From: Alloscardovia macacae
GTDB taxonomy: Bacteria; Actinomycetota; Actinomycetes; Actinomycetales; Bifidobacteriaceae
DNA: 64,000 bases
Assembly (NCBI RefSeq): GCF_002259705.1
Contig: NZ_MWWT01000001.1
Span: forward strand, 310,001 to 374,000
Direction: 5' to 3'
Shown here: positions 652 through 18,972 of the stretch, piece by piece
Layout: the number at the start of each line of letters is the position of its first letter
How positions within the stretch are numbered: the first letter of the stretch is position 1
Notes under the pieces: generated by a model
Told to the model about the DNA's origin: nothing
What the model saw: the letters and a program-made list of their open reading frames with translations, nothing else
Database searches by the model: none
Made by a program: the position numbers and the translations under genes

Positions 652-1233
652 CTATCTCTCCTCAAGTCCTTCCCAGCCTTGATATCCCGAAGCAGTGATG
701 CCGAAAGGGGACAGAAGTCGAGCGGCGATGGAATAGGTCATCTCCTCGATGGACGTATAGTGCCCGTAGAAGTTCATAACGGGTGGCATGATACGCACTC
801 CCGGAATGCTCGAAAGCTCCTGCATATTTCTCAGGTGGATGGGGCTGAGCGGACTTTCTCGAGTGCACAGGACGAGTGGACGCTGTTCCTTGATGGTCAC
901 ATCGGCAGCACGCAGGAGAAGATTCTCTGCATAGCCACTGTGTATGCCGGCCAGAGTTTTCATCGAGCAGGGAACGACCACCATTCCTGCGGTAGGGTAA
1001 GAGCCGCTTGCAGGACGTGCGCCTATCTCTGTAGGCTCATACCAGTCATCCGCGAGCTCGCGAACGTCGGAGACACTGAGCCCCGTCTCCCACTGAAGAG
1101 TGGTCTGGGAGCTGTCGCTCAGAATGAGTGTAGAGCGCCAGCCATCATCCGCATTTTCTCGAATAATGCGCAGTACATCGATGAGCAGCGGGAGTCCGCT
1201 AGCTCCGGTAGCTCCTACGATAATGCGTTTCAT
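652..1233 (-). CDS. lpdB: UbiX-like flavin prenyltransferase, LpdB/VdcB type
   Basis: This 193-residue protein is of normal UbiX length. It opens with the flavin-binding GATGASG loop at about residues 7-13. Further on it has the PCSMKTLAGI stretch and the TRESPLS segment typical of the family. UbiX enzymes attach a dimethylallyl group to FMN to make prenylated FMN, the cofactor of UbiD decarboxylases. The ATG overlaps the stop of the UbiD gene in an ATGA arrangement, so the two are probably translationally coupled. The tannase two genes upstream and an LpdD-like protein nearby point to a role in gallate decarboxylation rather than ubiquinone synthesis; actinobacteria of this kind make no ubiquinone. 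The gene symbol is assigned by analogy with Lactobacillus plantarum. Confidence 0.9.
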   Translation of the reverse strand: MKRIIVGATGASGLPLLIDVLRIIRENADDGWRSTLILSDSSQTTLQWETGLSVSDVRELADDWYEPTEIGARPASGSYPTAGMVVVPCSMKTLAGIHSGYAENLLLRAADVTIKEQRPLVLCTRESPLSPIHLRNMQELSSIPGVRIMPPVMNFYGHYTSIEEMTYSIAARLLSPFGITASGYQGWEGLEER

Positions 1234-2726
1234 GATTCTGTCCTTTCTTCTCGCGTCGAAGGAACCCAGTGCTCAGGATCGACATCCATAAAACGTGATC
1301 TCCTAAAACGGTCCTTCTGGTCGAAAGGCACGGTACAGTCGAAGATGGTCTTACGCGCCATACCATGCGCGCTCAGGTGTGAGCTGTACTGAGGGTCATT
1401 CGACGGGTCGAGCGGATGGCAGCGCACATCGGGGATGGAGATGACATCCACATCAGACTGGAAGCGTGTGGTCATAGCCCACATGACGTCACTAATGTCG
1501 AAGCAGTCCACGTCTGGGTCCACGAGAAAGACGTGCTTGAGCTCGCTAAAGGCGCTAAAAGCGAGGAGAGCAGCCTGCCTCTGACGTCCCTCATCGGACG
1601 CCGTCTTCTTCTCAAACTGGAGGATAGCGGCGAATTTTCCTCCTCCGAAAGAAGGACAGTATACATTACGCAGCCGCCCTGGCATGGCTTTGTCTATCAT
1701 GCCCCAGATGCTGGCTTCTGTAGGTATTCCTGCCATGGACACGTGCTCTTCACTCGGACCTATACAGGTCTGCATGATGGGGTGCCGTCGCGTGGTCACG
1801 GCTGTCACTTTGATCTTCCAGCACTGGTCGCTCGCTGGCCCCGTATATCCCGGAAATTCTGGCATAGCATACCCAGTATGCGAGTTCTGATCTTCCTGAA
1901 CGCGGACATGAGGAATGACTTCGCCTTCGATGACATATTCCGCATTCGCGATGGCACGCTGGTCGACCGTAAGGCAGGAGACGAGCTCCACAGGTTTCCC
2001 GCGCAGGGCTCCTGCCACACTCAGCTCATCATATCCGAGGGGTGTCGTAGGCGCTTCGAAGCAGGCTCCTATCTCGATGGCAGGGTCTACGCCGATACTC
2101 ACGGAGATGGGAAGAGTCTGCCCGAGTTCTTCAGCGCGCTCCGCCATGGCACCGATGTGGCGCGCTCCCGGAGTGAAGAAGATGGAGAGCTCATCTTTTC
2201 CCTGAATACATAGACGATGAATAGTCACATCATGCACTCCAGTGTCGGGATGTGTAGCGTAACACATGCCGAGTGTGATGTACGGACCGGCATCATCGGG
2301 AGTGTTCGTCGGTGCAGGCAGAAGTGTATGGAGGTCGAAGTCGGGGTCGCTTGCGCGGTGAACGACCTCCTGGCAGGCAGCGGGGCCATCCACAAGGACA
2401 GGTGGAATAGGATTATCCACACTCGAGAAGAGCTTTTTTCCGAGCTCCGACGGAGCACATCCGAGCAGAAGCCCCACGCGCTCGCGGCTGGCGAGGAGTC
2501 CTATGAGGACAGACGAGTCAGGATGCCCTTCCACACTGTGGAAGAGGAGAGCCGGCCCCTCTGTCGTCGGCCGCGCTACAGTTCCTCCTGCGCCTATGTG
2601 CCGATACACTCCGGCGAGCTCGGCATGGGGGTGCACTGGCACATCTGTCTCTGCGAGCTGTCCCGGATGCTGGCGGAGGAGTGCGAGCGCTGAACGGAGG
2701 CTGTCTACCTGATTTTCTGATGTCAT
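1230..2726 (-). CDS. lpdC: UbiD-family decarboxylase, probable gallate decarboxylase catalytic subunit
   Basis: The 498-residue length fits the aromatic-acid decarboxylase branch of UbiD. Arg-171 in the IHRLCIQ segment and Glu-267 in VIEGE sit where the catalytic Arg and Glu of the family are expected. The stretch from about 278 to 295 (EDQ, then TGYAMPEFPGYTG) resembles the gallate and protocatechuate decarboxylase group as I recall it. The likely reaction is gallate to pyrogallol plus CO2 using prenylated FMN from the neighbouring UbiX. AAAGGA lies before the ATG. The gene is 25 bases downstream of the tannase. Substrate is inferred from context; vanillate, protocatechuate or 4-hydroxybenzoate remain possible. 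Confidence 0.88.
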   Translation of the reverse strand: MTSENQVDSLRSALALLRQHPGQLAETDVPVHPHAELAGVYRHIGAGGTVARPTTEGPALLFHSVEGHPDSSVLIGLLASRERVGLLLGCAPSELGKKLFSSVDNPIPPVLVDGPAACQEVVHRASDPDFDLHTLLPAPTNTPDDAGPYITLGMCYATHPDTGVHDVTIHRLCIQGKDELSIFFTPGARHIGAMAERAEELGQTLPISVSIGVDPAIEIGACFEAPTTPLGYDELSVAGALRGKPVELVSCLTVDQRAIANAEYVIEGEVIPHVRVQEDQNSHTGYAMPEFPGYTGPASDQCWKIKVTAVTTRRHPIMQTCIGPSEEHVSMAGIPTEASIWGMIDKAMPGRLRNVYCPSFGGGKFAAILQFEKKTASDEGRQRQAALLAFSAFSELKHVFLVDPDVDCFDISDVMWAMTTRFQSDVDVISIPDVRCHPLDPSNDPQYSSHLSAHGMARKTIFDCTVPFDQKDRFRRSRFMDVDPEHWVPSTREERTES

Positions 2727-2751
2727 TCTCTATCCTTTCTTTCGTGTGGCG

Positions 2752-4128
2752 TTACGCGCACAGAGAGTCGATCCATGCGAAGAGCTCGTCGAGATCATAA
2801 TCTCCTGCATGAGGCAGACCCCATGGATACTCGAGGTTAACGTCCACTCCTGCCTTCTGGAAGCTTAGATAGAGTAAGGCAGAGATAGCGAGAGACGTGT
2901 CGCGGTCCATGGATCCATGACGCAGACGTACGTGCGAAGCAAGCGTGGCGTGAGTATCTGAATGATAGGTCATCGGGTTCATCATGCGGATAATGTGTGC
3001 ATCTGCCCGAGATTCGTCGCCGTATACCGCAGTAAAATGCTGAGACGGGATGTGAGCGGTTCCGAAGAGCTCATTTTCGGGAGACTGTCCGTTCAGTGCA
3101 TCAAATGCAGGAGTCTCCTTCATGCGCGTGCGGAAGCGGATGTACCCGTCCCAGTCCATGCGTGTGGCCTGTCCGCCGTCCACCGTTAGCCATGCTGTGA
3201 CTGCTGGATCATCTGCGAGCGGAGCGCCTGCGTCGAGCGCTTTTTGCGCTGACGCCAGAACGGTATTCTCGATGAGCTCGCGCAGCTCGGCTTCTGGTTC
3301 GCCCGTCCAGAATGGCAGAGACTGCAGATACGGCTGGAAGGCGTCGTGTAGTTGAGCGGAGAGCGTCTGCTGGTGAGCTGTGAGAAGACCGTCTTTGTTC
3401 AATTTTCTCGGTTCTTTCTCCCCGTCTCGAGGAGGAAGGAACGTGACCATATGGTACTCGAGGAGAGTATGGAACTCCCACTCGTAGGCCATATCTGCAT
3501 GATCGAGGTTCGTGATAGGGCAGTAGCAGGATGCTGCGAAGATGTCATCGCGCTCATCGGCTGCACCCATCGCAGCAAGGTAGGGAGCATAGTCAGGGTG
3601 GTTTCCTGTGCTCGCGAGAAGCGAGGAAAGAGCGCCGCCTGCACTCGTACCATTCGAGATGATTTTCTCGGTGTCGCCGGGAACAGTGGTAGCGTTATGG
3701 CGCAGAAAGCGTACAGCGGCTTTGAGATCACAGAGAGCAGCTGGAGCTACGCCTATATTCTGTCCATCCGCATTCGTCATGCCACGCCCGCGCACTCCGG
3801 GTGAAACCACCACGTAGCCATGGAGAAGGGCGTAAAAAGTGGCGTTTGTCTCTCCGAGGAAGTTCACTCCAGGAGCCTCCTGAGGGCCTGGCATGTACCC
3901 TCCCACAGTATTCGGGAGGAAGATAGGTGCTGTGCTCAGGGTGTATCCATGAACGGACTGACCGGCATAGAATGCTTCGGGGACATAGATACTCAGACGC
4001 TGAAAAGCAGCATCGTCGGGGTGGAGTGCGTAGGGTATATTCTCGAAGGCACGGTAGGTCAGTGTCTGACCATCTCTGGTCAGAGTGTGGACCGTGTACT
4101 GGTCGGGGGCGAAAGTGAGGTCAGTCAT
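2752..4128 (-). CDS. Tannase (tannin acyl hydrolase), lactobacillus type
   Basis: The 458-residue alpha/beta hydrolase closely resembles the tannase of Lactobacillus plantarum along its whole length, as judged from memory of that sequence. Visible signatures are PNTVGGYMPGP (72-82), the nucleophile elbow NGTSAGG with Ser-162, CPITNLDHADMAYEW near 203-217, Asp-410 in RDTSLAI and His-440 in LPHAGDYDLD. Ser-162, Asp-410 and His-440 form the expected triad. There is no signal peptide, so the enzyme should act in the cytoplasm on imported gallate esters such as methyl gallate or galloyl-glucose. AAAGGA precedes the ATG. It lies between the transporter and the decarboxylase genes in one operon. The main alternative, a feruloyl esterase, is less likely given the decarboxylase genes. 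Confidence 0.9.
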   Translation of the reverse strand: MTDLTFAPDQYTVHTLTRDGQTLTYRAFENIPYALHPDDAAFQRLSIYVPEAFYAGQSVHGYTLSTAPIFLPNTVGGYMPGPQEAPGVNFLGETNATFYALLHGYVVVSPGVRGRGMTNADGQNIGVAPAALCDLKAAVRFLRHNATTVPGDTEKIISNGTSAGGALSSLLASTGNHPDYAPYLAAMGAADERDDIFAASCYCPITNLDHADMAYEWEFHTLLEYHMVTFLPPRDGEKEPRKLNKDGLLTAHQQTLSAQLHDAFQPYLQSLPFWTGEPEAELRELIENTVLASAQKALDAGAPLADDPAVTAWLTVDGGQATRMDWDGYIRFRTRMKETPAFDALNGQSPENELFGTAHIPSQHFTAVYGDESRADAHIIRMMNPMTYHSDTHATLASHVRLRHGSMDRDTSLAISALLYLSFQKAGVDVNLEYPWGLPHAGDYDLDELFAWIDSLCA

Positions 4129-4173
4129 GAGAAATCCTTTCGATGATAGAGGGAAAATTGACCACAGAAATGC

Positions 4174-5562
4174 TTAACGGTAGCCGAGCGAGGCGTGGAT
4201 CTCCGGAAGATACTTCTCGACGGTCATGAGCAGAACGCCCACGAGCAGAACGATGCTGAAGAAGAAGCCCATCCAGCCGAAGTCGAATTGGATAGCGGAA
4301 ACGACGGCGTCAGACTGTACAGGAGCAGCCGGGTCGTATCCTACAGCAGCCAGAATCCATGCCGTAGCAGCAGACCCGAAACCGATGCCTATCTGCGAAC
4401 CGATGGACTGTGCGGAAGCAGTCAGACCTTCCGAACGAATGCCGTACTTCCACTCGCCATAATCCGCGCTATCCGCGGAAAACGCATACAGTCCGGCGAA
4501 CATCGGTCCTAGGCCGATGGAACGCAGAACGGTGCCGACGATGATGAGAAGAGTATTCGTCTCAGCGATGCCGGTCAGCGCGAATCCAGCTATCATGAGC
4601 ACGGCACCTGCGGCCATGAATGCGCGCTTGGAGAAGCGACGGGCACAGTATGGCATGAGGAAGAGGACGAGAATTCCTGGAATCTGTCCGGCCATGAGCA
4701 GAACAGTCATGAAGCCTGGATCATGGAGAATAACCGTGCAGTAGAAGATCTGCGCGCCGATGGCATTCGCATTCACGAAAAGAATAAGAGTCCCCAGCAG
4801 CAGGCTCAGCCAGAAGTAGCGATTCTTCAAAACAGCAGGAAGCTGTTCCTTCAGAGATGGTTGTGGCGTCTTCTGGAGTGTCTCATCTGCTGAATTCGGG
4901 CCAGACATGCCCACTTTCTCCTGCAGAGTTACAGACGGGATGAGAATGAGGACTGCGGTCAGAATACCCAGAACGATACTCGTGAAGAACCATCCCATGC
5001 TCAGCTGGAGCCACGTGATGAGGATGCCGGCGGCGAGACCGATGACGTTATTCAGCACGCTGGACACCATGGATGCATCATTACGGCTGTCCACGTCACG
5101 CGTGAGGCGAGCGAGCAGAGCGTTATGGGAGATACCGAACATCGTGGCTACGATGCCATTGAGGAAGAGATAGGATACGTAGGCGTAGATGAGCTTCGCT
5201 GTCTCACTCCAGCCCATCGGAACATTCATGATGGCCACGATGCCCACGAGCATGAGCGGAGCGCTGGCAAACAGCCACGGGCGTGCTTTACCGAATCGCG
5301 AGTGTGTGTTATCGATGAGACTGCCCATGACGAAGTTCGTGATGCCATCGAGGAAGCGGCAGACTACGAACATGGTGCCTATGGATGCGGCTGCTATGCC
5401 TGCTGTATCCGTGTAGTAGGCGAGAAGGAAGGTGGCCAGGAGCGTATTCATGACGTTACCGCCACCAGCTCCGAGACCATAGCTGATTTTCTGAAGCCAG
5501 CTGAGACGAATCATCTCACTGGAGCCACCGGAGGCGGTCGTATCGAGGACTGGAGAAGACAT
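4174..5562 (-). CDS. GPH-family (MelB-like) sugar/cation symporter of the MFS
   Basis: The protein has 462 residues and about twelve hydrophobic segments. Its N-terminal half reads SYGLGAGGGNVMNTLLATFLLAYYTDTAG and then GSLIDNTHSRFGKARPW, the hallmark of glycoside-pentoside-hexuronide symporters. These carry glycosides with Na+ or H+ across the inner membrane. It is the first gene of the transporter-tannase-decarboxylase operon, so it probably imports the tannin-derived substrate. A GPH carrier suggests a sugar-linked gallate ester rather than free gallate, but this is inference. An AAAGGGG site lies before the ATG. The 130-base gap to araC holds the likely operon promoter. Confidence 0.88.
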   Translation of the reverse strand: MSSPVLDTTASGGSSEMIRLSWLQKISYGLGAGGGNVMNTLLATFLLAYYTDTAGIAAASIGTMFVVCRFLDGITNFVMGSLIDNTHSRFGKARPWLFASAPLMLVGIVAIMNVPMGWSETAKLIYAYVSYLFLNGIVATMFGISHNALLARLTRDVDSRNDASMVSSVLNNVIGLAAGILITWLQLSMGWFFTSIVLGILTAVLILIPSVTLQEKVGMSGPNSADETLQKTPQPSLKEQLPAVLKNRYFWLSLLLGTLILFVNANAIGAQIFYCTVILHDPGFMTVLLMAGQIPGILVLFLMPYCARRFSKRAFMAAGAVLMIAGFALTGIAETNTLLIIVGTVLRSIGLGPMFAGLYAFSADSADYGEWKYGIRSEGLTASAQSIGSQIGIGFGSAATAWILAAVGYDPAAPVQSDAVVSAIQFDFGWMGFFFSIVLLVGVLLMTVEKYLPEIHASLGYR

Positions 5563-5670
5563 GTATCGTACCCCTTTGTAAGAGACTTTCTTTTTCTACG
5601 AGAAGCGTTCTCGTACTGAAAAAGTCTAGGCGTGTCAGGGATACGACGAAAGGGAGCAGATTAACGAAAA

Positions 5671-5693
5671 AATGACGAAAAATTATACTTTTC
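5671..5693. promoter_or_regulatory. Candidate AraC operator/promoter element, copy 1
   Basis: The plus strand reads AATGACGAAAAATTATAC and then TTTTC, nearly identical to 6687-6710 on the other side of araC. On the minus strand the core contains TATAAT (5687-5682), a perfect -10 box facing the transporter gene 120 bases away. It touches the araC stop codon. Its position fits a binding site or promoter for the tannin operon. Confidence 0.5.
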
Positions 5694-6666
5694 AGTCTGT
5701 GTGCTGCGTCTGCTGCTTTCTGTACTGATGGGGAGTGATGTGGTATTCCTTTTTAAAATGCAGAATAAGTCCCCGGGCATCAGAAAAGCCACAGTTCTGC
5801 GCTATCGATGTGAGAGACTCATCGGTACTTGTGAGAAGCTGCGCGGCGAGGGAACAGCGCTTTTTCGAGAGATAATCCATGTATGTCAGTCCCGTGCTGT
5901 CTTTAAAAAAGCGGGCGAAATACTCTTTCGAAAAGTGGAACTTCTGGGCGACCATTTGCTGAGAGAGGCGCTCGGTATAGTGTTCATCCGTGTACTCGAT
6001 AATCTGCTGGAGGCGCGCGATGTGCTTATGTCTCGAGGTGGAGATGGCGGCTCGCTCGGGCTGGAGGTGTGTGCTGCAGAGCAGATAGAGCAGCTCGTTC
6101 GTCAGACTCCCCTCGAGAATGTGCGTGTAGACCGTACGGACAGAAGGATTCTGAAGGTGGAGAAGCTCACGGAGGATGGCTGCTTCGCGCTCGCGGAGAG
6201 ACGGGTCGTCGGTACGTACCTGGAAAACGGAGGATGCGAGATTCGGGATAAGGTAGTCCATGTACTGGTAGCCGATGTGGAGTACGATGGCCACTGGAGT
6301 GTCATCAGGATACGCCACATACGTGGTGATGTCAGGAATCACGCTATGGAAGCTGTAGGGGCTGATGACGAAGACATCTCCAGGCTGAGCGATGTACTCG
6401 CGGCCATCGATGTAGTGGTGAGAATGTCCCACGAGGGTCGCGACCACTTCGAGTGCGGCATGCCAGTGATTCTCCACGATATGCGAGGCGGAGTATGCCG
6501 AGTGCGAGTGCGCTGTGATGGAGACGATGCGAAAAGGACCGCGAGATTCGTCGAGAATCTGCATGGGAGCGGCATGGTCGTCCGGAGCGCCGAGGCGGAC
6601 GGACCCCTTCGACTGCAGTGCGGACGGAGAAGTAGATGGATGGTAAGCGCGGAAAGACTCTGTCAT
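5692..6666 (-). CDS. AraC-family transcriptional regulator with cupin sensor domain
   Basis: The 324-residue protein has an N-terminal cupin-like half (about residues 45-160; the HWHAALEV and EYIAQPGDVFVISP segments form the beta barrel) and a C-terminal AraC double helix-turn-helix (about 215-320). In the latter, LSQQMVAQKFHFSKEYFARFFK is followed by LTSIAQNCGFSDARGLILHFKKEYHITPHQYR. It sits between the tannase operon, read in the same direction, and lpdD, read the other way, so it is the obvious local regulator. Two near-identical motifs flank it. It probably responds to gallate or a tannin product as an activator; the ligand is not visible in the sequence. Lactobacillus tannase loci use a LysR regulator, so this is a different control type. 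Confidence 0.88.
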   Translation of the reverse strand: MTESFRAYHPSTSPSALQSKGSVRLGAPDDHAAPMQILDESRGPFRIVSITAHSHSAYSASHIVENHWHAALEVVATLVGHSHHYIDGREYIAQPGDVFVISPYSFHSVIPDITTYVAYPDDTPVAIVLHIGYQYMDYLIPNLASSVFQVRTDDPSLREREAAILRELLHLQNPSVRTVYTHILEGSLTNELLYLLCSTHLQPERAAISTSRHKHIARLQQIIEYTDEHYTERLSQQMVAQKFHFSKEYFARFFKDSTGLTYMDYLSKKRCSLAAQLLTSTDESLTSIAQNCGFSDARGLILHFKKEYHITPHQYRKQQTQHTD

Positions 6667-6686
6667 ACGGAACTAGTCTAGCGTAG

Positions 6687-6710
6687 AATGACAGAAAATT
6701 ATACTTTTTC
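6687..6710. promoter_or_regulatory. Candidate AraC operator/promoter element, copy 2
   Basis: The plus strand reads AATGACAGAAAATTATAC and then TTTTTC, repeating copy 1 with one substitution and one or two extra bases. It lies in the 64-base gap between the divergent araC and lpdD starts. The minus strand carries TATAAT (6703-6698) facing araC. The plus strand carries TATACT (6700-6705) facing lpdD. Confidence 0.5.
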
Positions 6711-6730
6711 GGGAAAGGAGAGTGGAAGCG

Positions 6731-7150
6731 ATGAATCCAAGTGAAGGAGAGCTGCATCGCACGCGAGGATGCGTGACTGTCCAGGCACGTATCCGACGTG
6801 TGAATGCAGATGTACGAGTAGAGCTCACAGGAGGTGATGTGCCTCATCTCGGAGTGGTCACCATGGTGGATGCGCACGGCGAGATGACCACGCACGCATT
6901 CGCGAGTAGACCGGGGCGAGTACATCAGGAAGGAGTACTGACGGAAAAGATGGCGGCGGTTCTGGCTGCGCACGTCTCGGGAAATCTCATCATCCTGGCG
7001 GGTGTGCATGTGCAGAATATCACTGCGGAGCAGATGGAGGATGTCTTCCGTGCTACGGACGAGCTGACTGCAGACGTGGCATTATGGCTCGACGAGCATC
7101 CCGCACAGGTACTTACGGAACGCTTCTCTCCCGCGCATCCGCGGACCTGA
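6731..7150 (+). CDS. lpdD: LpdD-like small protein of gallate decarboxylase
   Basis: This 139-residue protein resembles LpdD, the third protein linked to gallate decarboxylase in lactic acid bacteria. The match is in HLGVVTMVDAHG (about 37-48), GVLTEKMAAVLAAHVS (about 72-87) and LAGVHVQNITAEQMEDVF (about 93-110). LpdD-type and VdcD-type proteins are small partners needed for full activity of UbiX/UbiD decarboxylases, perhaps in handling prenylated FMN. I chose the ATG at 6731 because AAAGGAGA at 6714-6721 sits nine bases before it; a GTG at 6722 is too close to that site. It is divergent from araC and carries one of the two shared motifs. Confidence 0.82.
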   Translation: MNPSEGELHRTRGCVTVQARIRRVNADVRVELTGGDVPHLGVVTMVDAHGEMTTHAFASRPGRVHQEGVLTEKMAAVLAAHVSGNLIILAGVHVQNITAEQMEDVFRATDELTADVALWLDEHPAQVLTERFSPAHPRT

Positions 7151-7195: not shown

Positions 7196-9025
7196 ATGCG
7201 TAAGGAATACACGCGCGCGGTCACCACGCCTATCGATGCGGATGCGAATGTCTTCTCCATCCTCCAGAACCGCGTGCAGCGCGCTGCGCATGAGCCGCTC
7301 ATCGAGTATAAAGCGGCAGACGGCTCCTGGACAGGGTATACTGCTGAGGAATTCCAGACTGTGGTCATAGGTCTGGCGAAGGGTCTGATGGCGCGCGGTG
7401 TGAAGCAGGGAGATGCCGTCGCTGTCATGTCGCGTACGCGCTGGGAGTGGACGGCGCTCGACCTCGCCATCATGAGCATCGGCGCGGTGACGGTGCCTAT
7501 CTATGAGACGAATTCTGCGCTGCAGGTGAAGACCATAGCGAACGACTCCCAGGTGCGTATCATCGTGGCGGAGAACGATGCGCAGCGCGAGAAAATTGAC
7601 GCTGTGAGGAACGACATGCCTACGGTTACGGACGTCTTCATCCTCGATAACGACAGTACGGACGTCACCATCATGCAGACGCTGACGGAATACGGAAAGG
7701 CCGTGGCGGACGCGGACTTCTGGGCGCGCGAGCAGGCGGTACGCGGCGCGGATCTCGCGACCATCGTCTATACGTCCGGCTCGACGGGCACGCCGAAAGG
7801 CATCGAGCTGTCGCACGCGAACTTCGTCTACGCGGCGTACAGCGGCATTCAGTCCATGACGGATATCTGCTACCGTCCGGGCGGCGCGCGGCTGCTGCTG
7901 TTCTTACCGCTCGCTCACGTGTTCGCGCGGTATATGCAATTCTTCTGCATCGGATCGGACACAGTCCTCGGCCTGTCGAATAACCTGAAGACTATCATCC
8001 CGGACTTCCAGTCGTTTAAGCCGACGTTTATCCTCGCCGTTCCGCGCATCTTCGAAAAAGTGTATAACGCGGCCTCGCAGAAGGCAGGACGCGGATATGT
8101 GGGACGGCTGTTTAACCGCGCGGCGAACCTCGCGCGCGAATGGTCGCACGCACAGCAGGAAGGACGCACCCTAAGCTTCGCCAAACGCCTCCAGTATGCG
8201 CTCTACCAGCGCGTTATTTATAAGACCATTCTCGGCGTCTTCGGTGGACACGTGGAGTATGCGGTTTCGGGTGGAGCGCCACTCGACTCGTCTATCGCGC
8301 ATTTCTTTAATGGTGTGGGATTGCCACTGCTCGAGGGCTATGGCATGACCGAGACGTGTGCTCCGGTGTGCGTGAACCCGACGAAGGGGTATAAGATAGG
8401 CACCATAGGTGTGCCACTGGAAGGCATGACTTTCGGCGTGGCTGACGATGGTGAGCTGTGTGTGAAGAGTGAGAGTGTGTGCCTCGGGTATCATAATCAT
8501 CCGGAGATCGACGCCACGCAGCTCGTGGATGGCTGGCTGCATACGGGCGATCTCGGAGATATCGACTCTGATGGGTTTATCCGCATTACAGGGAGGAAGA
8601 AGGATCTCATCATTACCGCGGGCGGAAAGAACGTCTCGCCGAGCATGCTGGAGTCCAGCGTAGCCACGTCTCCAGTGGTCAGCCAGTGCGTGGTCATAGG
8701 GGATAAGAAGCCGTTCATCGCGGCTCTCATCACGCTGGACCTCGCGGATACGAATGCCTGGCTGGCCTCTCAGGGGGCTGCTGAGGTAGAGTCTTTGGAA
8801 GCGGCGGCGGTGAATCCTATCGTGGCTGCAGAAGTGGAGCGTGCCGTGGATAAGGCAAATCTGCAGGTCTCGCGCGCAGAATCCATCCGCAAGTATAAGA
8901 TTCTCGCCGACACGTTTACTGAGGAAAATGGTATGCTCACGGCGAGCCTGAAGACGAAGCGTTCTGTGATTATCCAGCACTATCAGGATGTGGTAGAGAA
9001 GGAGATTTATACGCCGCGGAAGTAG
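7196..9025 (+). CDS. Long-chain fatty acid--CoA ligase (AMP-forming)
   Basis: The 609-residue protein is a full-length member of the ANL adenylate-forming superfamily. The phosphate-binding loop YTSGSTGTPKGIELSH is near residue 200, GYGMTETCAP near 382, and GWLHTGDLGDIDSDGFIRITGRKKDLIITAGGKNVSP at about 445-482. The last stretch is typical of the FadD15/AAE group that activates long-chain fatty acids to acyl-CoA via acyl-AMP. GGAAGG lies before the ATG. It is 45 bases after lpdD but is probably a separate housekeeping gene. Chain-length preference cannot be read from the sequence. Confidence 0.9.
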   Translation: MRKEYTRAVTTPIDADANVFSILQNRVQRAAHEPLIEYKAADGSWTGYTAEEFQTVVIGLAKGLMARGVKQGDAVAVMSRTRWEWTALDLAIMSIGAVTVPIYETNSALQVKTIANDSQVRIIVAENDAQREKIDAVRNDMPTVTDVFILDNDSTDVTIMQTLTEYGKAVADADFWAREQAVRGADLATIVYTSGSTGTPKGIELSHANFVYAAYSGIQSMTDICYRPGGARLLLFLPLAHVFARYMQFFCIGSDTVLGLSNNLKTIIPDFQSFKPTFILAVPRIFEKVYNAASQKAGRGYVGRLFNRAANLAREWSHAQQEGRTLSFAKRLQYALYQRVIYKTILGVFGGHVEYAVSGGAPLDSSIAHFFNGVGLPLLEGYGMTETCAPVCVNPTKGYKIGTIGVPLEGMTFGVADDGELCVKSESVCLGYHNHPEIDATQLVDGWLHTGDLGDIDSDGFIRITGRKKDLIITAGGKNVSPSMLESSVATSPVVSQCVVIGDKKPFIAALITLDLADTNAWLASQGAAEVESLEAAAVNPIVAAEVERAVDKANLQVSRAESIRKYKILADTFTEENGMLTASLKTKRSVIIQHYQDVVEKEIYTPRK

Positions 9026-10157: not shown

Positions 10158-11051
10158 CTAAAATAGCGTATCCTGATGATTACTCTTCCAGCTTCCGTCG
10201 TCAAAGCGGCGGATAGCTTCGTCGAGCTTCGCCACGGCCTGATCCATGTGCTCACTGGCTAGCTGCAGGCGCTGTGCTGCAGCGTCAAAACGTTCGGTGG
10301 CCTGGTTCAGACGCGTGATGAGTTCTTCGGTGATGATGCCGTTATCTTCGTGAAAGAGCGGCTGATCGACGAGAGTGGACTCGTGCGGTTCCGGCTCTTC
10401 CACTTCTGCGAGCAGCTGCTCTTCCCACAGTCCGAGCTTCGGCTCAGGCTCTGGCAGAGGCTGCGTGATGCGCGTTTCGCGGTTTTCTGGGACTTTCAGC
10501 CCGCGCGCATACGGACCGTTTATCAGGACTGACCATCCTTCTTCCGGCATTTTTCCGTCAATTTCCCCTCGACCTGCGCGTTCGGCGAACCCGCGGGCGA
10601 GATCATCGACTTTTTCATTATAGAAGTTCCCCGCGTGGCCTTTTACCCAGACGAAGTCCACGGAGCCAGTGCGGGCAGTGAGCTCAGCATCGATAGCTTT
10701 AATGAGCTCTGCATTCTTCACTGGCTCTTTCTTCGAGTTCTTCCAGCCATTTCTCTTCCAGCCTTTAATCCACGTGGTGGAGCAGTTAATGGCATACTGA
10801 GAATCCGTCTCGATAACGAGAGGATAGTCTCCAGGATGCTCGCGCAAGCACTGGAGGACTGCGGTCAGCTCGCCTATCTGGTTCGTTCCATTCGAGGCGC
10901 CACCGCAGTCTTCCGAGCGCCCCGAGATGGCAGTAGATACGCCGCCCGGGTTCTCTCGCGTATGCTCGACCCAACCCCAGCCCATAGGACCGTTCGGGTT
11001 ATTCAGAGCACTGCCATCAGTGGATACGGTTACTGTGAAGTTAATGGTCAT
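10158..11051 (-). CDS. rnhA: Ribonuclease HI with C-terminal extension
   Basis: The first 155 residues form an RNase HI domain that cuts RNA in RNA-DNA hybrids. The four acidic residues are visible in VSTDGSA (Asp-12), GELTAVL (Glu-61), ETDSQYA and NEKVDDLAR. The remaining 140 residues are a low-similarity tail rich in Glu and Pro, followed by an amphipathic stretch from about 240 to 285 that could form a coiled coil. Total length of 297 is twice that of E. coli RNase HI. It begins only 11 bases after the pgm stop. The tail has no visible motif and I assign it no role. Confidence 0.88.
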   Translation of the reverse strand: MTINFTVTVSTDGSALNNPNGPMGWGWVEHTRENPGGVSTAISGRSEDCGGASNGTNQIGELTAVLQCLREHPGDYPLVIETDSQYAINCSTTWIKGWKRNGWKNSKKEPVKNAELIKAIDAELTARTGSVDFVWVKGHAGNFYNEKVDDLARGFAERAGRGEIDGKMPEEGWSVLINGPYARGLKVPENRETRITQPLPEPEPKLGLWEEQLLAEVEEPEPHESTLVDQPLFHEDNGIITEELITRLNQATERFDAAAQRLQLASEHMDQAVAKLDEAIRRFDDGSWKSNHQDTLF

Positions 11052-11062
11052 ATATATTCCGT

Positions 11063-12739
11063 TTAGTCTGCTAATGCGTCGTTTACCACGTCCATGGCCT
11101 CAGACACGACAGTGTCCAGGGTCTCAGGCGACGTGAAGGACTCGGCGTAGACCTTATAGATGTTCTCCGTTCCGGATGGACGTGCAGCGAACCACGAGTT
11201 CGACGTCGTCACCTTCAGACCGCCTATGGCTGCGCCATTTCCTGGAGCAGTGGTCATCTTCGCAGTGATGTCCTCGCCAGCCACGCTCGTCGCGCTTACG
11301 GAGTCTGCCGTCAGTCCAGCAAACTTCTGCTTCATCTCCAGAGTGGTAGGGGTGTCCACACGCGTGTACCAGCTTTCGCCGAAGCGAGCTACCTGGTCGG
11401 CGTGCAGTTCAGCAGGATTCTTTCCAGTCTTCGCCGTAATCTCAGCGGCGAGCAGGTCTGGGATAAGGCCATCCTTATCTGTGGTCCACACGCGGCCATT
11501 CCTGCGCAGGAAGCTCATGCCAGAGGATTCCTCGCCGCCGAAAGCCACATCCCCGCTAAAGAGTGGGGCCACGAACCACTTAAAGCCTACTGGCACTTCT
11601 ACGAGCTTCGCACCGATGGAAGCCACCACTCGGTCGATAAGGCTGGAGGAGACGAGAGTCTTACCCACGCCTGCCGTAGCTGGCCAGTCTGGACGGTTCC
11701 CACCGAAGAGGTACTCCACGCAGACAGCGATGTAGTGGTTCGGGTTCATAACGCCCGTGCCTGGGCAGACGATGCCGTGGCGGTCTGCATCGGGATCTGT
11801 ACCGCCCACGAGGTCATACTGGTCCCATGCGCCAGCGTTCAGGCGGTCCAGCAGCCCCTTCATGGCATACGGTGAGCTCGGGTCCATGCGGATCTTTCCG
11901 TCATGGTCCAGAGTCATGAAGGACCACTGTGGGTCCACAGTGGCGTTCAGCACGCCGATGTTCGTGCCGTATACCTCGTTAATCAGCGGCCAGTAGTTCA
12001 CGGATGCGCCGCCAAGTGGGTCTATGCCGAGGCGCACACCCGAAGACTTCATAGCCTCGAAGTCGATGACGTTCCTCAGGTCCTCTACATAGTGCTGGCG
12101 GAAGTCGAAGCGCTCGATGAGGTCGGACTTCATGGCCTGTTCGAATGGAACGCGCTGAATGCTCGTCCAGTTCTGGAGCAGCTCGTTCGCGCGGTCTGCT
12201 ATAGCTGCAGTAATCTCAGCGGAGGCTGGACCGCCCGTAGTCGGGTCATACTTAAAGCCACCATCCGTCGGAGGATTATGCGACGGAGTGACCACGATAC
12301 CGTCTGCGATGTCGTCGCCCGAGAAGCGCTGCGTGCCATCAGCTGCGCGGTTATGCGTGAGGATGGCCTGCGAAACCACAGGGGTAGGGGTGTAATCATC
12401 TCGCGCATCGATGCGCACTCGCACACCATTCGCTACGAGGACCTCGATGGAGGTCTTCCAGGCTGGAAGGCTCAGTGCGTGTGTGTCACGACCGATGTAC
12501 AGAGGCCCTGTGATGCCGGCCTTTTTACGGTACTCGGCGATGGCCTGGGAGATGGAGACGATGTGTGCTTCATTAAACGTGCGCTTCAGAGCGGAACCGC
12601 GGTGTCCGGAGGTACCGAAAATCACGCGTTCCGATGGCGTCGCTGGATCTGGAACATCGTCATAGTAGGCGCCGATGAGAGCGTCTACGTCTACTAAATC
12701 GTTTTCAGTGGCTACAAAGCCTGCGTTATGTGCTACCAT
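11063..12739 (-). CDS. pgm: Phosphoglucomutase, alpha-D-glucose phosphate-specific
   Basis: The 558-residue enzyme interconverts glucose 1-phosphate and glucose 6-phosphate. The catalytic serine loop reads [16 protein letters not shown] and the metal-binding loop reads [10 protein letters not shown]. The sugar-binding segment is [10 protein letters not shown], and the phosphate-binding end is [14 protein letters not shown] chose MVAHNAGFV as start because it matches the usual N-terminus of the bifidobacterial enzyme; a longer frame to 12775 adds 12 unlikely residues. No clear ribosome binding site precedes it, so a leaderless or very short-leader transcript is possible. It lies head to tail with rnhA and rpiA. 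Confidence 0.93.
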
Positions 12740-18886: not shown

Positions 18887-18972
18887 GGATAGTTGGCCGA
18901 GCGGTCGAAGGCACTTGTCTTGAAAACAAGCGTACGAGAGTACCGGGGGTTCAAATCCCTCACTATCCGCCA
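18887..18972 (+). tRNA. tRNA-Ser (anticodon TGA)
   Basis: The acceptor GGATAGT at 18887 pairs with ACTATCC at 18962-18968, then discriminator G and an encoded CCA at 18970-18972. The anticodon stem-loop CTTGTCTTGAAAACAAG gives TGA, reading UCA and other UCN serine codons. The long variable arm is typical of tRNA-Ser. The T arm reads GGGGGTTCAAATCCC. Confidence 0.95.

Follow-up and report, generated by a model that had tools for sequence, protein, structure and literature searches.

The 64-kb stretch of DNA analyzed here (hereafter, the window; from contig NZ_MWWT01000001.1 of Alloscardovia macacae) carries, between positions 652 and 7150, six intact genes encoding UbiX, UbiD, tannase, a transporter of the major facilitator superfamily (MFS), an AraC-type regulator and LpdD. 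As predicted from sequence, these genes very likely constitute a horizontally acquired catabolic island for conversion of galloyl esters to gallate and further to pyrogallol (Table 1). An earlier note on this DNA had described all three decarboxylase components, a transporter and a regulator lying beside the tannase within 6.5 kb, and this description holds: the open reading frames are in place, the family matches are far beyond chance and consistent with the solved relatives, and all six proteins exceed the curated cut-off of one or more Pfam or NCBIfam models. Five genes are transcribed from the minus strand in the order AraC, GPH-type MFS transporter, tannase, UbiD and UbiX, with LpdD divergent from them on the plus strand. 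The transporter and tannase genes are 45 bp apart and those of tannase and UbiD 25 bp apart, and the four genes from the transporter to UbiX, each with a purine-rich ribosome-binding site at its start, probably form one operon. The end of the UbiD gene and the UbiX gene overlap by 4 nt and, because of this overlap, are probably translationally coupled. Inspection upstream of the AraC ATG revealed no clear ribosome-binding site. For LpdD, the most likely start is the ATG at 6731, preferred over the GTG at 6722 because of the AAAGGAG directly upstream. A scan for promoters and terminators in the window stayed about at shuffle level (4 vs 3.7 and 4 vs 3.5, respectively).

The tannase matches the tannase_B model NF041556 with 537.8 bits (cut-off 300), and its best solved chains are 7q6y, an alpha/beta hydrolase (4e-125), followed by tannases including 3wa6 (2.7e-112), which we take to be the Lactiplantibacillus plantarum enzyme, and 4j0g; five of the six strong solved relatives are named tannase and one alpha/beta hydrolase. 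Alignment to 3wa6 places S162, D408 and H440 at the positions of S163, D419 and H451 of the catalytic triad, and K337, E351 and D410 at those of the galloyl contacts K343, E357 and D421. The roles of the catalytic D419 and of the three contact residues are those given for the L. plantarum tannase in PMC4233993. Thus, the triad of the earlier note (Ser-162, Asp-410, His-440) stands for the serine and the histidine but has to be amended for the aspartate: by this alignment the catalytic residue is D408, and D410 is a galloyl contact. Among 34 aligned tannases (that of the window and L022-L054), S162, H440, K337 and E351 are present in all 34, D408 in 33 and D410 in 32; this set was assembled without second copies (L056, L093, L094, L096), the fragmented L055, the actinobacterial L084-L088 and L089. 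When all left-out rows except the second copies were restored, yielding a 44-row set with ten distant or broken matches, the counts were 39 for S162, D408 and K337, 42 for H440, and 40 for E351 and D410. Departures at one or more of the six sites occur in L052, L054, L055, L088 and L089-L092, the last four of which score below the tannase_B cut-off. Two of the tannase-like proteins, from L053 and L054 (33-37% identical), come from metagenome-assembled genomes (MAGs) titled Anaerolinea and Methanothrix and pair in the tree with support of 100/98. Since a crude hydrophobicity check detected no signal-like N-terminus, unlike in the proteins of Glaesserella and genome G434, the tannase is probably cytoplasmic. 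A feruloyl esterase was considered and rejected: the BD-FAE Pfam model is passed (43.5 vs 26.8 bits) over only 52 residues around the nucleophile, whereas the tannase_B model and the galloyl contacts are matched over the whole length. Best matches to feruloyl esterases or unrelated UbiD clades, named in the earlier note as grounds for refutation, were not encountered; the strong solved relatives of the tannase bear the name tannase or, in one case, alpha/beta hydrolase, and the best three of UbiD are named 3,4-dihydroxybenzoate or protocatechuate decarboxylase. Hydrolysis of galloyl esters, yielding gallic acid plus an alcohol or sugar, is a strong prediction for this protein.

Structure searches with UbiD, LpdD and the GPH transporter also returned solved relatives. 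In UbiD, the N-terminal, Rift-related and C-terminal domains (PF01977, PF20695, PF20696) all exceed their cut-offs (3.1e-53 for PF01977). Its three best solved relatives, named 3,4-dihydroxybenzoate or protocatechuate decarboxylase, have E-values of 2e-186 or lower, with values below 1e-191 for 5ny5 and 5o3n, both labeled 3,4-dihydroxybenzoate decarboxylase. The reaction class, decarboxylation to pyrogallol or catechol with release of CO2, is thus strongly predicted, and the genomic context points to gallate, and probably also protocatechuate, as the substrate. UbiX matches TIGR00421 at 176.8 bits (cut-off 108.9) as well as PF02441. LpdD has no NCBIfam family match; it matches PF21758 at 84.8 bits (cut-off 27) and the crystallized L. 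plantarum LpdD (8p4w) with an E-value of 9e-18. Of the H35-H61-D63 metal site of 8p4w, both histidines are matched (H42 and H68, numbered from the GTG), and E70 occupies the position of D63, where a glutamate is also found in three genomes of the host family (G152, G160 and G163). LpdD is reported in PMC10865409 as a chaperone binding prFMNH2, a form of prenylated flavin mononucleotide (FMN).

The transporter matches the GPH model TIGR00792 (245.8 bits, cut-off 231.35), the MFS_2 family PF13347 (251.5 vs 27) and structures of melibiose permease (E 1e-29). Transporters 58% identical to it lie beside the tannase in two of the loci compared below (L024 and L048), with a distant one (27%) in L022, making it a candidate galloyl-ester importer; given its relationship to melibiose permease, import of galloyl sugars is conceivable. 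The regulator matches HTH_18 (PF12833; 71 bits, cut-off 33.6) and PF02311, and again has relatives, 39-42% identical, beside the tannase in L024 and L048; five other loci hold weaker matches of AraC type. Two copies of a 22-base repeat, 91% identical to each other and also recovered by a repeat search (D3), lie on the minus strand, one upstream of the transporter operon and the other upstream of araC, both of which are transcribed from that strand. Both contain TATAAT and may be -10 regions, operators or both. We infer that AraC would activate its own gene and the transporter-tannase-UbiD-UbiX operon through this motif.

Table 1. Features of the tannase-gallate decarboxylase island and its flanks (positions within the window)
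Feature	Position	Strand	Basis
Left flank: small basic protein, 29 amino acids	484..573	+	In three congeners, 97-100% identical and ~200 bp from fadD
UbiX flavin prenyltransferase (LpdB-type)	652..1233	-	TIGR00421, PF02441
UbiD-family decarboxylase, LpdC-like (predicted gallate/protocatechuate decarboxylase)	1230..2726	-	PF01977, PF20695, PF20696; 5ny5, 5o3n; tree
Tannase, subtype B, predicted cytoplasmic	2752..4128	-	NF041556; structures 3wa6, 4j0g; conserved residues
GPH-type MFS symporter, putative galloyl-substrate importer	4174..5562	-	TIGR00792; melibiose permease structures; relatives beside tannase
AraC-family regulator with cupin-like sensor domain	5692..6666	-	PF12833, PF02311
LpdD-type prFMNH2 chaperone	6731..7150	+	PF21758; 8p4w; open reading frame listed from GTG 6722
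Motif AAAAGTATAATTTTTCGTCATT, preceding the transporter-tannase-UbiD-UbiX operon; candidate operator or -10 region	5671..5692	-	Pattern search and repeat search
Second motif copy AAAAGTATAATTTTCTGTCATT, in the araC/lpdD divergent intergenic region	6687..6708	-	Pattern search and repeat search
Right flank: FadD-like AMP-dependent ligase (assigned by inspecting the sequence)	7196..9025	+	In all five genus genomes, including the window's own

The phosphoketolase of the genome matches its best PDB counterparts, presumably bifidobacterial enzymes, at 1682 bits, and on this basis the host would belong to Bifidobacteriaceae. Within this family, a tannase_B match over the cut-off was found in a single genome of 189, that of the window, bearing out the earlier note's view of a full tannase locus in a bifidobacterium-like genome; weaker matches in 60 other genomes are mostly confined to a short stretch around the nucleophile (best, 98.7 bits). 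Relatives of UbiD are present in four of the 189 genomes (the window's, G152, G160 and G163), as is PF21758 over its cut-off, with a fifth match below it. An even sample of 396 genomes of the phylum yielded tannase_B matches over the cut-off in six, of which the five other than the host are large genomes of one genus, with tannases 30-33% identical to that of the window (L088: 58% over 120 amino acids). One large actinobacterial genome, G434, has four such matches (L084 and three elsewhere in the genome). UbiDs closely related to that of the window (E up to 1e-150) were found in four of the 396, namely, the host and three genomes of another family (67-70%). The literature searched, the coverage of which is partial and no proof of absence, contained no report of tannase in Bifidobacteriaceae and none pairing tannase with '-scardovia' names. 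In our assessment, this is a known kind of system in a new host lineage, ordinary in its clustering and notable, within the sample, for its host.

The ordinary nature of the clustering became apparent from comparison with 34 tannase loci fetched following a tannase scan of GTDB genomes, a sample from which near records may be missing. Partner genes were counted only within the stretch fetched for each locus; LpdD was recognized by similarity or by PF21758, the latter sought in 9 of the 34 genomes. Tannase, UbiD, UbiX and LpdD occur together in seven loci, all from Lachnospiraceae (L022, L023, L030, L037, L038, L048 and L050, with UbiD split over two frames in L050), and UbiD and UbiX were detected, at the thresholds applied, in 11 and 9 loci, respectively. 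L031, which encodes UbiX and LpdD but where the contig ends inside UbiD, was not counted among the seven, and in the remaining loci some or all partners were not found within the fetched stretch. The exceptional clustering suggested by the earlier note is thus not upheld, the more so as Streptococcus gallolyticus also combines tannase (tanB) with a clustered three-component gallate decarboxylase (sgdCBD), as described in PMC4218992. That bacterium belongs to another phylum, and the likeness stems from published gene arrangement rather than protein comparison. Nor do the data support the view that tannase is mainly a feature of Lactobacillaceae, staphylococci and S. gallolyticus: 18 of the 34 loci are from Lachnospiraceae (by title or membership), and a review notes tannase in Roseburia and Slackia besides the lactic acid bacteria from which it is mainly reported (PMC8276758).

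Among the closest counterparts of the window cluster are those in Lachnospiraceae (the seven loci above and L024), where tannases are 48-57% and UbiDs 67-77% identical to those of the window (65 and 73% for the two pieces in L050). The L048 locus, from a MAG, has the same gene order as the window, LpdD-AraC-MFS-tannase-UbiD-UbiX, but with LpdD co-oriented with the other genes rather than divergent, and in L024 the PF21758 gene lies outside the fetched stretch. L048 also carries a second, partial tannase (10900-11469; 37% identical over 205 amino acids) between tannase and UbiD. Another counterpart is the system of L. plantarum (tanB, lpdC, lp_2943, lpdB, lpdD), which employs the same enzymes, with tannase 44-46% and UbiD 56% identical between the window and three Lactiplantibacillus relatives, and with the crystallized LpdD matched by that of the window. 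However, in L. plantarum lpdC is located more than 1 Mb from lpdBD (PMC4218992), whereas the window has a single cluster; and lp_2943 is an ion-transporter-superfamily protein, according to PMC4600210, whereas the window encodes a GPH symporter and an AraC regulator. The earlier note's remark that lpdD usually lies apart in lactobacilli does not agree with what PMC10865409 and PMC4218992 report, namely, that in L. plantarum lpdB and lpdD are transcribed together and that the separately located gene is lpdC. LpdD adjoins UbiX in all three Lactiplantibacillus genomes examined. In Lactiplantibacillus fabifermentans (L098), a second UbiD lies beside UbiX and LpdD, in addition to the UbiD near tannase in L041, and thus the split of the lpd genes differs among lactobacilli.

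In three congeners (G005, G006 and G007), the small basic gene and the fadD-like gene that flank the island are ~200 bp apart with no island in between, and the terminator-like stretch that follows the small basic gene, presumably encoding a bS22/AURKAIP1-COX24-like protein, is seen in the window as well. Because the flanks are this close in three of the four congeners, the cluster looks inserted between two core genes. In the fourth congener (G008), the region adjoining fadD contains a run of N as well as unrelated open frames (L080, 9131-10191), so that the interval between the flanking genes may vary across the genus. No transfer RNA gene was found near the island, the nearest being at 18887, and no mobile-element families were found among the six proteins (Pfam, NCBIfam) and no long flanking repeats.

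The history of the cluster looks mosaic by sequence comparison, with Lachnospiraceae-like tannase, transporter and regulator, and with UbiX-UbiD and LpdD nearest to tannase-less members of the host family. In a careful tree of 34 rows, the tannase falls into a set of eight, the other seven being Lachnospiraceae (98/99), and adjoins L024 (94/93, just below the strong level); a quick tree, which left out L056, L093, L094, L096, L055 and L084-L088, agreed. UbiX is 75% identical to its homologs in G152 and G160, 58-64% to those in L022, L023, L024, L030 and L031, and less to others. The UbiD tree (17 rows, leaving out second copies, the fragments L050 and L031, and the distant L026) places the protein outside the Lactiplantibacillus clade, in a set with Lachnospiraceae, G152 and G160, and within that set groups it with the latter two (90/92, below the strong level), whose UbiDs are the closest (80-81%). 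LpdD is 50% identical to that of G163, 41% to G160, 35-36% to G152, 32-34% to Lactiplantibacillus and only 22-33% to Lachnospiraceae. These affinities raise the alternative that UbiX-UbiD-LpdD is native to a branch of the family, with tannase, transporter and regulator a later addition between UbiD and LpdD, to which we assign somewhat less than an even chance. G152 and G160 do carry UbiX-UbiD with a divergent LpdD and no tannase over the cut-off in either genome, and both UbiD and LpdD have their nearest relatives within the family. However, UbiD and PF21758 are absent from the other four members of the genus, three of which lack the block at this site, so that within the genus the cluster came as one block; furthermore, given the identical gene order in L048, loss of the tannase in G152 and G160 fits equally well. 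The G160 and G152 loci (L077 and L078) come from ~3-Mb genomes, in stretches of 63-64% G+C, and their LpdD has a long insertion. A broken UbiD in these genomes was considered and dismissed: the single TGA fits a match running a few residues past the stop, and the L078 frame is intact (506 amino acids). In G163, whose genome contains no tannase above the cut-off, an LpdD-UbiX-UbiD locus (L079, 9022-11684) has a UbiD grouping with Lactiplantibacillus (100/100); its decarboxylase is, by sequence, apparently an independent acquisition.

In the pathway that we favor for the acquired island, the GPH-type symporter would import small galloyl esters, and the cytoplasmic subtype-B tannase would release gallic acid from them by hydrolysis, along with an alcohol or sugar. 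UbiX would make prenylated FMN, which LpdD probably hands to UbiD, and UbiD would convert gallate, and probably also protocatechuate, to pyrogallol (catechol from protocatechuate) and CO2, upon which pyrogallol would exit the cell. The benefit would lie in detoxification, any released sugar and proton consumption, as reported for the metabolism of gallate by L. plantarum (PMC4600210). Anaerobic breakdown of pyrogallol by a molybdenum transhydroxylase route is known in other bacteria. No match to the molybdopterin oxidoreductase family PF00384 was found in the genome (assembly ~95% complete; a control family was detected in 11 of 14 genomes), and molybdenum-dependent further breakdown is therefore unlikely, the pathway probably ending at pyrogallol. 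For L. plantarum, PMC4600210 describes a proton motive force arising from gallate decarboxylation and gives lp_2943 as the likely transporter. A more elaborate route, which we regard as speculative and rather unlikely in full, would have the symporter take up galloyl-glucose intact and the tannase cut it inside the cell, the sugar entering the bifid shunt, decarboxylation of gallate consuming a proton and pyrogallol being exported, such that carbohydrate scavenging would be coupled to pH homeostasis under AraC with two operators.

Several points count against the interpretation developed so far. The vanillate decarboxylase models VdcC and VdcB are matched below their cut-offs (NF041204/NF041206; 435.4 vs 650 and 214.1 vs 290), UbiD also misses TIGR00148 (203.5 vs 244.85), and no curated model in the NCBIfam scan names it a gallate decarboxylase. 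L. plantarum LpdD is reported in PMC10865409 to contribute little or nothing to the decarboxylation of gallate. As to regulation, the motif pattern, which turns up twice in the 64 kb when up to three mismatches are allowed and in none of 100 shuffles, had been noticed by eye and built from both copies before the test, so that the exact matches are there by construction; the link to AraC is one of position, and the other loci, among them L024 and L048, yielded no exact copy. Finally, G008 shows no empty site, with the small basic gene near a contig end and fadD on another contig. On the substrate, it could be argued that the esterase primarily frees protocatechuic acid and that UbiD yields catechol, in line with the names of UbiD's best solved relatives; both the tannase and LpdC of L. 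plantarum reportedly accept protocatechuic compounds, according to a 2013 paper. Considering the conservation of all three galloyl-hydroxyl contact residues and the 537.8-bit match to the tannase_B equivalog model, we judge protocatechuate improbable as the main substrate.

At 55.5% G+C, the island is close to the window as a whole (56.6%) and ranks 18th lowest of 115 windows. Codon-use distances of UbiD, tannase, MFS and AraC, the four genes covered by this comparison (UbiX and LpdD excluded), are exceeded by 17, 21, 20 and 12, respectively, of 29 mechanically chosen host frames, and third-position G+C is 57-67% in the island genes vs 73% in fadD. No sign of recent transfer is apparent in composition; tannase genes of relatives have similar G+C (58.5% in L048, 54% in L022), and hence composition cannot date the transfer. 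That the island arose by misassembly or misbinning, with Lachnospiraceae DNA in a bifidobacterial contig, is hardly credible even though, among the sequences searched, the nearest relatives of tannase, transporter and regulator are from Lachnospiraceae and the assembly is in 20 contigs, because it is embedded in a 482-kb contig between genes that are adjacent in three congeners, UbiX, UbiD and LpdD are closest to other family members, and G+C and codon use are host-like (a weak argument, some relatives being of similar G+C).

Collectively, these results predict that at least one member of a sugar-fermenting family converts galloyl esters to pyrogallol, which certain other gut bacteria are known to do but few relatives of the host share. 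The locus provides a clear gene marker for this trait and, in its GPH transporter, a candidate galloyl-ester importer. It further shows that, in this family, tannase and decarboxylase modules have been combined in more than one way.

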